Below, one piece after another: positions 10,606-17,710 of a DNA stretch of 64,000 bases. Every line of letters begins with the position of its first letter. Position 1 is the stretch's first letter. The position numbers and the translations under genes were made by a program. Under the pieces are notes generated by a model, which had not been told where the DNA came from, did not search any database, and worked only from the letters and a program-made list of their open reading frames with translations. The DNA lies in NCBI RefSeq assembly GCF_029760895.1, contig NZ_CP121679.1, positions 3,082,001 to 3,146,000 of the forward strand, given 5' to 3'. Origin of the DNA: Ancylobacter sp. WKF20. GTDB lineage: Bacteria > Pseudomonadota > Alphaproteobacteria > Rhizobiales > Xanthobacteraceae.

Positions 10606-10676
10606 ATGGTGGAGCCGAGGGGATTTGAACCCCTGACCTCTGCAGTGCGATTGCAGCGCTCTCCCAACTGAGCTAC
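10606..10676 (-). repeat. attL: 3' tRNA-Ala fragment (71-bp exact direct repeat)
   Basis: Identical over 71 bases to 17634-17704. It keeps the D, anticodon and T arms and the encoded CCA, but the six bases needed to pair as the 5' acceptor strand are replaced by unrelated sequence (CGTTCG), giving mismatches at positions 1, 3, 4 and 6. It is therefore the displaced chromosomal tRNA 3' part, not a working tRNA gene. Confidence 0.92.
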
Positions 10677-11063: not shown

Positions 11064-12875
11064 TCAAGCCTCATCATCTGCCGAGAGCCATCGATCTCGA
11101 ATCCTTGTAATTTCCCGCTGATAAAAGTCCCGTACCGCTTCGCTTGTTCGCCGTGCCTCCTGCCCAGAAGCATCGCCGGAGTCCGCCAAGTTCCACAGCT
11201 TCGATGCTCGCGTCAGTTCGGCAAGAATACGTTGAGGGACAGGCTCTGGGGTCACCCGTAAGCGCTGAGGATATACACCCGTGATAACGTAAGGACGGCG
11301 GTTGCTGTTACCGTATACAGCGGACTGTGCAGCCCAAAGGGCGTGCGGCATCATTTTGCCGAACTGTTTTCCGAGTAGCTGAACGGCAACCGCTTCAGCT
11401 TCTGCATCTGTGACGGGGAACAACGTACCGACATATACCCGAGCACCGGCAAAAGTCAGCCGTTGGGCCAATTCATGCCAAGAGACGCAGGCATTATTAA
11501 TGATAATAGGGGTGCCTGTTGAAGCTAAGGAGCGATGCAATGCCAAATAATTATGGTCCGCCATACGCATAGCCGCTGAACCAACTACGCGTGAAACGCT
11601 ATCCTTTCTGACGGGTTTAATTGCGTCCGCCTCTATAAGAGACATGAAGTCGACTATAGCATTACCAACGTTGTAATTTTTCTTGGCTTCAGAATCAGTC
11701 CAATCTATGCCATCTAGAGAGTGAAACCGCATGAACTGATGAACTTTGACAATATTTGTTTCGTCCGTGTCAGACAAGCCTATAGCGATATCAACAACTA
11801 GCTCTCGCTCATATCCATCACTATCTTGAAAATTATAGGTCCATCTATGGCCACTAGCATCCCCACAGTGCGTAGAAATAATTAGTATATCGTACGGAAA
11901 ATATTCAACCATGTCGCTAATGTTACGCACTGTCGCTACTTGACCACTATATCCTCGCACGAATATTCGCCGGCCTGATAGTAACGTCGCCGCCGTTTTG
12001 ATTTCTGGTGCGCTGACCTGCTCTGGGTCCACCAAGACCGCAATATTGGTACCTCTAGCCCCTTCCCGCTCTGCGGCAAAGCCATTTGCGATACTAACCC
12101 CTAGGGCCGGGTAGCTAAAAAGGTGCGTCGATGGCAACTCAGGGAACGCGACACCAAATGGAAGCGACCTGCTGATGAAGGTAAGTGAACCACCCGCCGG
12201 CAATTCAACGTCTCCGCACATCTCCCTTAGCCGAGAGCCCAGCCGTGATCTAAGTTCAGTAGGGTTCTTGTTAGGATCGTCAATGCTATAATACGCCTCC
12301 AACATTTCTTCGCACTCGGCATCATCCACTTTATTTATGATGTGAAGGCCCGCGCCAAGTGAGAACGCGTAATTAGCGGCTATTATCTCTGAAAGCGGCT
12401 CGCCAGCCTCGCATATAACAAGGTGATTTGACTTCGGCTTCACACTATAACTTGGCGAAACCTTATCAGTGAAGTCAATAATTTCCTTCTCATAGAGCGC
12501 TTTTAGCAGACCAACTCCAATATTGTCTCGACCCCATACTAGCTTTCTTCTTGATTTATCATTGTTCGACATAAATAAACTTGGAATATCTCCTCGCGAG
12601 ACATGCCGCACTCGCCTATTGGGGAGAGCTTCAACTAAGGCGTTGCGCCCATCAGCATCCAGTTCTCCGATAATTATTTCTTGAACATTTGAGCGAACGA
12701 TCGCATTGCGCCTCTGCACAACCTCGCTGACGTGGTCTTGGCGTGTCATGCGTGGGCCGTCGAATATTGGTAGATAAACCCCGCGTTGGGCTAGGGCGCA
12801 TGAAAGGCCTGCAGCAAGCCACTCGCTGTCTGTAACGATGGCAACACTTGCTATGGCTGGACAGCGAAGCTTCAT
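11064..12875 (-). CDS. CHAT/caspase-like (clan CD) cysteine protease, island cargo
   Basis: 603 residues from the ATG at 12875 (a GTG two codons upstream is possible). The C-terminal third has the CHAT/C25-like layout: 'DILIISTHCGDASG' supplies the candidate catalytic His336 after a buried beta strand; 'PIIINNACVSW' supplies Cys463; 'FAGARVYVGTLFPVTDAEA' and a following helical 'ALWAAQ' match the end of CHAT domains. The first about 300 residues match no family I recognise and may be sensor or regulatory. No TPR, NTPase or membrane segment is evident. It is AT-rich, single, and placed just inside attL, away from the integrase, where satellites and islands usually carry cargo. Anti-phage defence by proteolysis is a reasonable hypothesis, not shown. 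Catalytic assignment is from motif shape only. Confidence 0.72.
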   Translation of the reverse strand: MKLRCPAIASVAIVTDSEWLAAGLSCALAQRGVYLPIFDGPRMTRQDHVSEVVQRRNAIVRSNVQEIIIGELDADGRNALVEALPNRRVRHVSRGDIPSLFMSNNDKSRRKLVWGRDNIGVGLLKALYEKEIIDFTDKVSPSYSVKPKSNHLVICEAGEPLSEIIAANYAFSLGAGLHIINKVDDAECEEMLEAYYSIDDPNKNPTELRSRLGSRLREMCGDVELPAGGSLTFISRSLPFGVAFPELPSTHLFSYPALGVSIANGFAAEREGARGTNIAVLVDPEQVSAPEIKTAATLLSGRRIFVRGYSGQVATVRNISDMVEYFPYDILIISTHCGDASGHRWTYNFQDSDGYERELVVDIAIGLSDTDETNIVKVHQFMRFHSLDGIDWTDSEAKKNYNVGNAIVDFMSLIEADAIKPVRKDSVSRVVGSAAMRMADHNYLALHRSLASTGTPIIINNACVSWHELAQRLTFAGARVYVGTLFPVTDAEAEAVAVQLLGKQFGKMMPHALWAAQSAVYGNSNRRPYVITGVYPQRLRVTPEPVPQRILAELTRASKLWNLADSGDASGQEARRTSEAVRDFYQREITRIRDRWLSADDEA

Positions 12876-13177
12876 GTTCACAAAAACCGCAGGTGCTTAA
12901 GATCCGGGATAGAGTGATATATTCCGCATGGTACGGATTATTTAGGTCAGGTTGAGGGGCTGGCCGTGTTTTTCACCGCAAGAATTACAGCCCTCGACAA
13001 ATTGCATCTCCGATTCGTCTCCATGCCTCATTGACTTGCAGGGATGAGCCGGGCCGCACCGTGCTCCCCGAAGGCATGACATTGCGTTTCCGCCTGTGAG
13101 CGGATTTGCATGGCGATGGGGTGTGTCGGGGGAGGCCCGGCGTTCCGGGGGGTCTCAGGGATAGAAGCTAAAGGGCG
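12876..13177. other. Intergenic stretch between the CHAT gene and the helicase; promoter region
   Basis: About 300 bases without a gene. The part next to the CHAT start (12905-12960) is AT-rich, with AATATATCA as a possible -10-like element on the minus strand. Nearer the helicase stop there are G/C runs but no textbook terminator. CHAT expression is therefore probably driven from its own promoter rather than by read-through alone. Confidence 0.4.
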
Positions 13178-14725
13178 TCAGAAGTCGTAAGGGTCGGGGG
13201 CAACCGCTTCGCTCGCGGCAAGGGCGAACTCCTGCATCACCTCGTCGAACAGCATCGCCGGAGACACCCAGCGACCATGCTCTGATGGCTCGCTCGGCAG
13301 ATAGTAAACTGGGCCGGTGTCATCCTCTGCCAATGACGGCTCTTGGAAAGCATCGGGATCAGCCTCAGGCGGCGCCTCAGGGGCCAAGCTGATGTGGGGC
13401 GTGAGGTGGTCAGCCGTTGGCGCCTTAGCCGCAGGGGCTGATCTGGCTGCCTCCCTGCGCTGGATCATTTCCGCCGCGCTCGCGCAGTCGAGCCACTCTT
13501 CAAGCAGCCCCCGCATCCGCTCTGAAGGGAGAAGCAGATTGATGGGCAAACCGTCCCTGATCCGGCTGCGCCAAATCCACTGCAGCATTTCGGAGAGGGC
13601 AAAGAGGTCTCCGTGCAGGGATATACCCTTATCCTCAAAGTAGCCTGCAATGTAAGGGTTGTAGTGTATGTTACACATATACGCTAAGGAGGCCTTGTGC
13701 TTGTGGTCATTCGTGGCCTTAGCGTTGCACGGTATGAACCCCTTAGCGTAGCCGGCACCACTTAGTTTCGGCCTATAGTCCTTGTATGTGGTCCATGCGT
13801 TTAGCTTAGCCTCTGTCTTAGCGTGTTTTTTAAACCAGTTTTGGATTGTTGCTCTAATTGCCTTTAATTCTTCGTCAGTTTGACGCTTGTACCAAGCCGA
13901 TGACAGCGGCTGTTCCTTGCTGGCGATGCGGCCGATATTGTTAGCACTACCCTTATAGACATTAATGAGTGACCTCAGTTGTTTTTTGTATTCGAGCTCA
14001 TTGCTAAATAGGTGCCAGTTCTTAATCTCCCCCTCATGGATCGTCAGTAGCTGATAATTGACACCCTTAGACTTGAAATAGGCCGCCATAGGTTGACCCT
14101 CAAACATGTAGGTCAGGACATAAGCATCACCTAGGATTCGAAAGAAATCTGGGGGTAGTGTCCAAAGTATGGTCTTGTTTCGATACATGAAGAGATTGCC
14201 GTTATCGCAAAACGACTTGATGTCAGCTAGCCGACCTCGATAATCCTCACCCTCAGTAGCTGCCCAGCGTAGACGCTTAGACTCATCATCAACGCATAAG
14301 ATGCCGCGCTCGATGAGCATCGTACGGTCACGTTTGGTCAGGCCTTCGAATATTCGGACACATTCCATAGCCTCATCAATGATGACCACATACCCCTTCT
14401 TCCGAATAGAAAGCAGTGTCTCTGTGGTGATGGCCTCAAACAAGACGTGGGTAGTTGCTATGTTCTGCCCCTCATCAACAAGAGCTTTGAAATGGTTAGC
14501 CTTAGACCGTATCACCTTAGGTAGACGAAAATGGAGGTCGGGGCAGGCTTCAGCGATACGATCAGCTTCAGACAATAGCGGCGTAACGAATATGAAGCGG
14601 GGAGGTTGGACCTCAGGCTGGCTGAAAGATTGACCAACATAGTTAGTGTACGCGTCATTCATCAGTTTAATGATAGCATTAGTCTTTCCTGACCCCATGA
14701 CAGAGTCGATAACCTTTATACACAT
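13178..14725 (-). CDS. Phage-type DEAD-like helicase/ATPase
   Basis: 515 residues. Walker A is 'DSVMGSGKTNAII' (GSGKT at 11-15), Walker B/DEAx is 'VVIIDEAMECV' (about 114-122), and 'QWIWRSRIRDG' (382-392) followed by 'NLLLPSERMRGLL' resembles motif VI and the tail of SF2-like proteins found in phage replication modules. The last about 95 residues are Pro/Ala/Glu-rich and probably disordered; this part is also more GC-rich than the rest. It begins with ATG at 14725, next to a repeat-rich non-coding stretch. Likely role: replication of the element. It could instead be a nucleic-acid translocase of another kind; no nuclease motif is seen. Confidence 0.7.
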   Translation of the reverse strand: MCIKVIDSVMGSGKTNAIIKLMNDAYTNYVGQSFSQPEVQPPRFIFVTPLLSEADRIAEACPDLHFRLPKVIRSKANHFKALVDEGQNIATTHVLFEAITTETLLSIRKKGYVVIIDEAMECVRIFEGLTKRDRTMLIERGILCVDDESKRLRWAATEGEDYRGRLADIKSFCDNGNLFMYRNKTILWTLPPDFFRILGDAYVLTYMFEGQPMAAYFKSKGVNYQLLTIHEGEIKNWHLFSNELEYKKQLRSLINVYKGSANNIGRIASKEQPLSSAWYKRQTDEELKAIRATIQNWFKKHAKTEAKLNAWTTYKDYRPKLSGAGYAKGFIPCNAKATNDHKHKASLAYMCNIHYNPYIAGYFEDKGISLHGDLFALSEMLQWIWRSRIRDGLPINLLLPSERMRGLLEEWLDCASAAEMIQRREAARSAPAAKAPTADHLTPHISLAPEAPPEADPDAFQEPSLAEDDTGPVYYLPSEPSEHGRWVSPAMLFDEVMQEFALAASEAVAPDPYDF

Positions 14726-16281: not shown

Positions 16282-16482
16282 TTACTGCATGTTTTTCAGC
16301 AGGTTTAACGCCTCCACATCAACAGTTGTCTCATCAATAAGCTCAGCTATAAGCTCATTGGCTCGCTCACGGCTCGCCTCAATGATCTCAGACAGGGTGT
16401 TGATGAGCTGCACCTTGGTAAGGCCGTGGTTCGGATCGACGTGAATCCGCTGACCGTCGAAGCTAAACATCAGCTTGGACAT
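16282..16482 (-). CDS. Small protein of unknown function in the element
   Basis: 66 residues, start ATG at 16482, 51 bp after the integrase stop and 50 bp before the Rha gene. It has an opening beta-rich part ('MFSFDGQRIHVDPN') and an acidic helical C-terminus ('IIEASRERANELIAELIDE'). No helix-turn-helix of the excisionase type is obvious. Position between integrase and regulator suggests a control function, but I do not recognise the family. Confidence 0.5.
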   Translation of the reverse strand: MSKLMFSFDGQRIHVDPNHGLTKVQLINTLSEIIEASRERANELIAELIDETTVDVEALNLLKNMQ

Positions 16483-16533: not shown

Positions 16534-17529
16534 TTAGCCGGTAATGGCCTGCGCCAGCTTCTCAGCCACTCTCTCAGGGCGAAGATGGGTGTACCGGCTC
16601 AGCATCCGGGTATCGCGATGGCCACTGATCAGGGCGACCTCAGGCACGGATAAGCCGTACTCAAAGAAGCGGGACACGGCTTCATGCCTCAGGTCATGCA
16701 TCCGCAGACCCTCAAGCCCAGCACGTTTCCTCAGCCGAACCCATGCAAGCCGGACCGCATTGGGAGAGATTGAAAATACCCGCTCACACGAACGATCAAG
16801 TGTGGCGAGCAACTCAACCGCCTTGGGTGTCAGCGGGATCGTGCGGGGGTATCCGTTCTTGGTCTTGGCGATGTGGATCGTACGTGCCTTGAGGTCCACG
16901 TCCTTCCACCGAATTGACAGCAGTTCCCCCCGGCGCATACCCGTCTCGATCAGCAGCAGCACGAAAGGACGCAGATAGGCCGTAGCTGGGGTTGTCATGG
17001 CGTTCAGTAGGGATGCCCCGTCTCCGTCCTCCAAGCGCCTATCCCGGCCCTTCGAATCAGGTGGCATCGTGACCTGCTTAATCGGGTTGGTCTTGAGAGA
17101 GACACCCCATTCCTTCATGGCGGTATCGAAGCAATGGCGCAGGATGCTGAACTCGCGCCGGATGGTCGCGCCCCTCACCCGCTTAAGGCGTTCATCACGA
17201 TAGGCGGCAAACTCGGCTGTGGTCGCCTTGGACAAAACCAGCTGACTAAGCCTGTGCCTCAGGAAAGCCCCAAGCACCAAAGCCTCAATGTGGCCGCCCC
17301 GCTTCCTCGGGACAATCTCCGCGATATAGCGCTGAACGATGTCGGCAACCGTCGTCTGATTCGCCACCTTGGCATTGACCGGCAAATCGCCTCGGTCAGC
17401 TTCTAGCTCAACCTGCCGTGCCCATGCTTGGGCGTCTGACTTCTGGATGAATGAACGGGCAAGGGGCGGGCATCCTTTACGTCGGACTTGGACCTGCCAT
17501 TTCGCACCGCGTTTGCGGATAGTGGCCAT
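16534..17529 (-). CDS. int: Tyrosine-type site-specific integrase
   Basis: 331 residues with an N-terminal arm-binding 'MATIRKRGAKWQVQVRRKG' region, a core-binding SAM-like domain (about 60-150) and a complete catalytic domain: Arg199 in 'TGMRRGELL', His278 and Arg281 in 'HDLRHEA', His304 in 'GHRD', and nucleophile Tyr313 in 'SRYTHL'. It lies about 105 bp from the intact tRNA-Ala, the usual arrangement for an element whose attachment site is the tRNA 3' end. It should catalyse integration and excision between the two 71-bp repeats. Confidence 0.95.
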   Translation of the reverse strand: MATIRKRGAKWQVQVRRKGCPPLARSFIQKSDAQAWARQVELEADRGDLPVNAKVANQTTVADIVQRYIAEIVPRKRGGHIEALVLGAFLRHRLSQLVLSKATTAEFAAYRDERLKRVRGATIRREFSILRHCFDTAMKEWGVSLKTNPIKQVTMPPDSKGRDRRLEDGDGASLLNAMTTPATAYLRPFVLLLIETGMRRGELLSIRWKDVDLKARTIHIAKTKNGYPRTIPLTPKAVELLATLDRSCERVFSISPNAVRLAWVRLRKRAGLEGLRMHDLRHEAVSRFFEYGLSVPEVALISGHRDTRMLSRYTHLRPERVAEKLAQAITG

Positions 17530-17633: not shown

Positions 17634-17704
17634 ATGGTGGAGCCGAGGGGATTTGAACCCCTGACCTCTGCAGTGCGATTGCAGCGCTCTCCCAACTGAG
17701 CTAC
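17634..17704 (-). repeat. attR: 71-bp direct repeat within the intact tRNA-Ala
   Basis: Exact match to 10606-10676. At this end the repeat joins the chromosomal 5' acceptor bases (17705-17710), so a full tRNA gene is restored after integration. Confidence 0.92.
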
Positions 17705-17710
17705 GGCCCC
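17635..17710 (-). tRNA. tRNA-Ala (anticodon CGC)
   Basis: 76 nt including the encoded CCA. The acceptor stem GGGGCCG pairs with CGGCUCC and contains the G3-U70 wobble, the identity element for alanine. The anticodon stem CUGCA/UGCAG encloses AUCGCAC, giving anticodon CGC, which reads GCG codons. It is the integration target of the neighbouring element. Confidence 0.95.

Follow-up and report, generated by a model that had tools for sequence, protein, structure and literature searches.

A tRNA-integrated element and its genes

The window analysed here, a stretch of 64,000 nucleotides from Ancylobacter sp. WKF20, holds a mobile element of 7,028 bp inserted at a tRNA-Ala(CGC) gene, and this element carries, at the end far from its integrase, the gene of a predicted CHAT-like cysteine protease (11064..12875, minus strand). 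The element is bounded by a perfect 71-nt att repeat whose two copies are spaced 7,028 nt apart. The copy at the integrase end (17634..17704) overlaps the intact tRNA-Ala(CGC), which is the integration target (17635..17710, minus strand), and the copy at the distal end (10606..10676) is identical to the 3' part of this tRNA. Reading inwards from the tRNA, the minus strand encodes a tyrosine integrase adjoining it (16534..17529; Pfam Phage_integrase, 6.7e-30; PHROG 1, 1.4e-61), a possible small protein of 66 aa to which we give low weight (16282..16482; no Pfam or PHROG match), a Rha-type phage regulator (15291..16109; Pfam Phage_pRha, 3.5e-32; PHROG 518, 1.3e-31), a protein of the PHROG family phrog_2467 (13178..14725; 6.5e-67, plus a weak DEAD-like match at E 0.061) and the CHAT-like protein itself, which has 603 aa from an ATG start, with an in-frame GTG two codons upstream, at 12881. 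The element has a GC content of 0.543, its CHAT-like gene one of 0.498 and the window outside the element one of 0.676.

A query from the right flank matched all 30 genomes of the genus that were searched, our own included, and in four out of four congeners examined (from the 29 other matching genomes) the site is uninterrupted and present in a single copy. Since the att site is empty in these congeners, the element is an insertion. No virion genes were found among the frames scanned, which were the larger ones (six against Pfam, five against PHROGs). The original description of a tRNA-integrated element of about 7 kb is borne out by the att repeats, the integrase and the empty sites; an integrase, an att site at a tRNA and larger frames free of virion genes would fit a phage satellite, a name that also implies dependence on a helper phage. 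Both the element and the gene are real: a chance frame or an ordinary chromosomal gene is ruled out by the att repeats, the empty sites and the conserved, full-length relatives described below.

The other genes of the element have separate affinities. In the Rha-type frame the family match is restricted to residues ~60-160 and the remainder does not look like Rha; the gene may therefore have changed and the element be in partial decay. The phrog_2467 family is without an assigned function; relatives of our protein occur in 55 phage records (SPbeta-group Bacillus phages and others), in two of 249 genomes, own included, and in none of the viral contigs searched. Its identity to the proteins of the SPbeta-group phages, whose hosts are far from the alphaproteobacteria, is ~37%. 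When five proteins of the element were compared with the PADLOC defence models, the phrog_2467 protein matched weakly twice (E 0.01 and 0.087) and the others not at all at E up to 1. None of ten host proteins of the window matched PADLOC at E up to 0.001.

The integrase has a 59% identical relative within the same family and relatives at eight loci in viral contigs. At the eight loci outside our genome that carry the nearest integrases, a tRNA lies within ~150 nt of the integrase in five, and a search at E up to 1e-4 returned no relative of the CHAT-like, Rha-type or phrog_2467 proteins. PADLOC matched three of nine proteins scanned at such loci (two of four at L070, one of two at L075, none of three at L071), which suggests that integrases of this type come with diverse cargo that is in part defence-like. 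A 7.2-kb element with a related integrase, from another genus of this family (L071:2435-9658), occupies tRNA-Ala(CGC) between perfect 62-nt repeats and encodes a 932-aa protein, primase/helicase-like by eye, and, also by eye, an HTH gene. A stretch of ~11 kb between two tRNA-Val copies (L070:6332-17435; 100-nt excerpts of the copies are identical) likewise has a related integrase, encodes NsnA/PD-T4-2-like and PDC-S11-like genes and is possibly a defence island.

Two halves of the CHAT-like protein

The protein is composed of an N half (residues ~1-245), a C half (residues ~270-540) and a helical, poorly conserved tail (residues ~546-600). In the translation, the His of STHCG (334-338, His336), the Cys of NNACVS (460-465, Cys463) and the downstream motif AGARVYVGTLFPV (476-488) all lie in the C half, where they had first been noticed. 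His336, Cys463 and their surroundings are invariant in the nine sequences that cover this half, and alignment and structure model together place the His at the end of one strand and the Cys at the end of a later one, as in CHAT proteases.

Similarity to the CHAT domain is weak but repeated. The Pfam model (PF12770) matches the query with 20.3 bits (E 4.1e-4), below the gathering cut-off of 24 bits, and the gene went unreported when the own genome was searched in six frames with this model at E <= 0.001; among ten members of the family it matches six at E up to 1, the best at 6.3e-8. Comparison of profiles with five ordinary CHAT domains gave E 8.4e-4, with an hhalign probability of only 24%, and two wider comparisons gave E 0.0021 and 0.012. 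In the profile alignment His336 pairs with the His in the CHAT motif ATHG and the Cys motifs are not superposed. The same His motif aligns between our family and five ordinary CHAT proteins from the order, L020-L024, encoded in three genomes, and a core of the form LA-x-x-F-x-F-AGAR after the Cys appears, by eye, to be shared (NNACVSWHELAQRLTFAGARVYVG in the family, SACNTA...LA-x-AF-YAGAR in ordinary CHATs). By contrast, His and Cys are 126-129 residues apart in 9/9 family sequences and 47-55 in the five ordinary CHATs, and the wide spacing goes with a conserved beta-rich insertion at residues ~340-390, seen in alignment and model, which our family adds. We describe the C half as probably CHAT-like, of clan CD, and distinct from an ordinary CHAT: the invariant His and Cys uphold the CHAT/clan CD arrangement originally proposed, and their spacing departs from that of ordinary CHATs.

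Armadillo-repeat matches returned by phmmer and hmmsearch fall on the Ala-rich helical part from residue ~488 onwards and were judged spurious. They disappear when residues 271-545 are searched alone; as this query omits most of the Ala-rich part, their rejection is a matter of judgement.

A first structure model, built on a two-row alignment (pLDDT 39), was discarded, and the one used is of mediocre quality (mean pLDDT 68, pTM 0.55). In it a strand at 277-281 is followed by a helix, a strand at 305-308, a second helix and a strand at 330-333 that leads to the His, and a further strand (457-463) ends at Cys463. This is the order of caspases, so the predicted arrangement fits a caspase-like fold, with pLDDT below 50 at 335-338 and 461-480, that is, around both putative catalytic residues, whose adjacency in space the original proposal expects.

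Unlike the C half, the N half matches no family in the libraries searched, as had been claimed: Pfam, PDB sequences at E up to 10 and profile comparisons yielded no sequence relatives, and sequence comparison finds no relation between it and the CHAT domain. Its conservation is strong, with D39-G-P-R42, H151, C155-G158 and IAANYA (165-170) invariant in the eight full-length proteins, and its predicted strand and helix order suggests alpha/beta units that look Rossmann-like by eye. A Foldseek search of the PDB placed four chains of the SAVED-CHAT filament 8tl0 at the top (E 3.0e-5, 1.9e-4, 1.7e-3 and 9.2e-3), in alignments of 578-596 columns, near the whole length, with 13% identity and TM-scores of 0.21-0.27; aspartate transcarbamoylases (E 0.027 and worse) and human separase (0.087) came next, and a viral fold library gave no match at E up to 0.001. 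Because these TM-scores are low and the alignment is known without its residue pairing, the likeness of the N half to SAVED or CARF is only a hint. Pfam finds no SAVED in the protein and profile comparison reaches it with E 0.24-0.44, to three HNH-SAVED-type proteins only. That the first 300 residues might act as a sensor, as originally supposed, is likewise only hinted at by this near whole-length fold alignment.

Relatives: rarity, settings and movement

We counted eight independent relatives (L008, L009, L010, L011, L012, L014, L015 and G234), taking two contig pieces of G234 as one gene and merging the duplicates L008 = G015 and L012 = L013, which were judged by length and match position and not letter by letter. 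They are 42-54% identical to the query over the full length, or over the two contig fragments in G234. Across the eight full-length proteins, query included, 133 alignment columns are invariant, with 52 in residues 1-270 and 78 in residues 271-543. Between three close copies, pairwise dN/dS is 0.09-0.26, a sign of selection on the protein; for two of these pairs dS approaches saturation.

The family is rare. Own genome included, relatives were found in 3/397 genomes of the order sample (2/396 others), 1/385 of the class sample (0/384 others) and 2/398 of the phylum sample, where the second is a weak match of 59 residues (E 0.008). A scan of genome contigs from 84,980 species, which rests on two short peptide patterns, recovered five loci from 61 pattern matches. 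Successive queries of viral contigs returned 0, 1, 3, 3 and 1 loci, three of them distinct, and 72,556 plasmid records and 50,697 phage records, queried with the focal protein (P0001) and L015, contained no relatives. The family has no name, and none of the open PMC papers that the literature search returned seemed to describe it. The word 'undescribed' in the original prediction therefore holds for the protein family, as far as searched, and fails for a CHAT protease in defence as such, since one is already listed, under Borvo, in a table of PMC10952713.

The settings in which the relatives sit are mixed: three lie in prophages, two beside recombinases and one among core genes, and two are without clear assignment. 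In the prophages (L012, L014 and L015), all ten proteins scanned match phage families, nine of them head, packaging or tail proteins and one an integrase. The gene adjoins terminase, portal and head protease genes in L012, from Ruegeria, whose prophage is Mu-like by eye; it is accompanied by tape measure, tail fibre, tail lysozyme and integrase genes in L014, and it adjoins both terminase subunits and the major head protein in L015. A resolvase and tRNA-Ser are found at L008, a resolvase and an integrase at L011. L009, next to an SRAP gene and, by eye, UmuC and UmuD, is without a clear mobile marker, and at L010, from Ahrensia, where a DUF2971 gene matches PADLOC, no mobile marker was seen. 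G234, with a malic enzyme/PTA gene upstream, SRAP downstream and GlnD- and MutS-like genes by eye, is a core-like setting and a counterexample to the mobile ones. A preponderance of core, non-mobile contexts would have spoken against the proposal; virion or recombinase genes lie near five of the eight relatives and G234 alone is among core genes.

Two associations seen at these loci are recorded here in their own right. In two relatives an SRAP (SOS-associated peptidase) gene and the CHAT-like gene are arranged tail to tail (L009:3030-3698 and L006:4454-5146), and in L011 a third SRAP gene lies ~6 kb away; this proximity may be coincidental. The 220 nt upstream of nine copies of the CHAT-like gene contain no match to five LexA-type patterns, and control by the SOS response was set aside. 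In the Ruegeria prophage an HSDR_N-type protein (L012:5985-7097), apparently cargo and without a PADLOC match, is encoded directly upstream of the CHAT-like gene.

Defence genes lie near three of the eight relatives. At E up to 0.001, PADLOC matched four of eleven neighbour proteins, in three of six loci: PD-Lambda-4_A at L011 (1312 bits), IetA and IetS at L014, separated from the CHAT-like gene by a GAF-domain gene, and PDC-S31 at L010. The neighbours were chosen by size and nearness, not at random, and those of L015 and G234 were left out, so these matches count as support and not as a measured enrichment. Many kinds of cargo are found clustered with defence genes. The query itself matches none of the PADLOC families at E up to 1, and at E up to 0.1 ten members match no defence model, the only match being to a homing-endonuclease model (1/10, E 0.032). 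The suggestion of a phage-defence factor is in this way favoured by the mobile setting and the defence genes near relatives, and receives nothing from PADLOC defence models, none of which matches any member.

DNA comparison bears on how the gene travels. L010 and L012 share 2,046 bp at 91% identity, spanning the gene and ~80-130 nt on each side, with no further match at E up to 1e-8 (on one side L010 extends only 365 nt past the match), and L011 matches both over the gene only. The gene appears to travel by itself between prophages and islands that are unrelated. The carriers L010, L011 and L012 have no substrate, regulator or antitoxin in common. A toxin-antitoxin pair, or a protease with its own substrate, was rejected for want of a shared partner in L010 and L012, the sole pair close enough at the DNA level; the co-conserved small substrate that had been sought did not appear in this one pair either.

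Possible functions of the protein

Because several of its relatives are located in unrelated prophages or close to antiviral genes, a role in phage defence carried by one gene is probable, and we somewhat favour the reading that this self-contained, caspase-like (CHAT-like, clan CD) cysteine protease is a single-gene defence cargo of mobile elements. In bacterial immunity a CHAT protease often has a partner that senses or is cleaved, such as a CRISPR complex, a cyclase or a gasdermin. If a gene of 2 kb appears to move alone, sensor and effector should share one chain, and the target should be one that many hosts offer; as no partner is common to the carriers, we infer that trigger and target come from the host or the infecting phage. 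The protein would be made and stay idle in the lysogen or island carrier, with the N half packed on the protease half. On infection by another phage, the N half would sense either a phage protein or a small molecule that is possibly nucleotide-like. The protease, through His336 and Cys463, would then be switched on and cut a host or phage protein, and this cleavage would keep the phage from growing and probably sacrifice the cell, as in abortive infection.

Known systems offer partial parallels. The protein may work in the manner of SAVED-CHAT or Borvo, but SAVED goes undetected at the sequence level, the gene has no linked synthase and PADLOC's defence models do not match it, so it is not assigned to either. 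The SAVED-CHAT protease of type III CRISPR/CBASS (PDB 8tl0) is described in passages of PMC11229360 and PMC11417357. The fold match to it is near whole-length and, if the alignment is right, both proteins would have one or more alpha/beta units followed by CHAT in one chain. Our protein differs in giving no SAVED match in Pfam and a poor one by profile comparison, and its element has no cyclase or CRISPR gene among the proteins scanned. In the own genome, neither SMODS nor SAVED was found. The one Cas10-like protein found there (L049, C1:2427916-2428350), unlinked to the element, has AADE at the place of GGDD, the usual Cas10 motif, so this host protein perhaps performs no cyclic-oligoadenylate synthesis; the same Cas10 palm model also matches 5 of 14 control genomes, including E. 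coli. The frame next to it is Cmr3-like by eye.

TPR-CHAT/Craspase (Csx29) of type III-E is, according to PMC9729208 and PMC10952713, a CHAT protease acting in phage defence. That protease is the likeness; our protein, in contrast, has no TPR match in Pfam, and neither gRAMP nor Csx30 was found among the proteins of the element that were scanned. Borvo is a single-gene system and PADLOC-DB includes a model of it; no PADLOC defence model matches our family, which also differs in its N half without a known family. The likeness to Borvo, listed with PF12770, CHAT protease, in the table of PMC10952713, is again a CHAT protease in phage defence.

An extension of the defence reading, which we hold tentatively and think rather improbable, makes the protein a one-protein immune pathway. 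Its N half would be a diverged SAVED/CARF-like (double Rossmann) ligand sensor on a caspase-like protease, triggered by a molecule made or changed during infection, with neither a cyclase nor a CRISPR complex of its own, and passed on as a single gene.

It is unlikely, in our estimate, that the protease instead serves its carrier, either cutting a repressor (its own Rha-type regulator, or that of a helper or co-resident prophage) and so timing excision or induction, or blocking a rival prophage. The frequent virion or recombinase genes near relatives would fit, as would the Rha-type regulator of the window element; the carriers, however, seem unrelated to one another, ranging from tailed prophages of different kinds (one is Mu-like by eye) through islands with a resolvase to a core-like locus, the DNA shared by L010 and L012 is confined to the CHAT-like gene, and the eight loci of the nearest integrases have no Rha-type, phrog_2467 or CHAT-like relative at E up to 1e-4. 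We give slightly less credence to a protein that is not an active protease and acts as a CHAT-like scaffold, as a ligand-binding protein or in some other housekeeping role. The wide His-Cys spacing, the low confidence of the modelled active site and the weak CHAT scores are compatible with it, and the core-like G234 copy might suggest housekeeping, but the His and the Cys proposed as catalytic are invariant, together with the residues around them. Least probable is counter-defence, in which a phage or island protease destroys a host defence protein: the gene is found in prophages and a protease cargo would fit, yet defence genes lie near three relatives and the conserved, unrelated N half suggests regulation.

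What is new here, as far as searched, is the protein family; CHAT proteases in defence systems (SAVED-CHAT, Craspase and Borvo) are already known. The family defines a CHAT-like subfamily with an unrecognised N half and a new insertion and, if single-gene phage defence is its role, it would offer a small, testable model of a caspase-like protease that is both detector and executioner.
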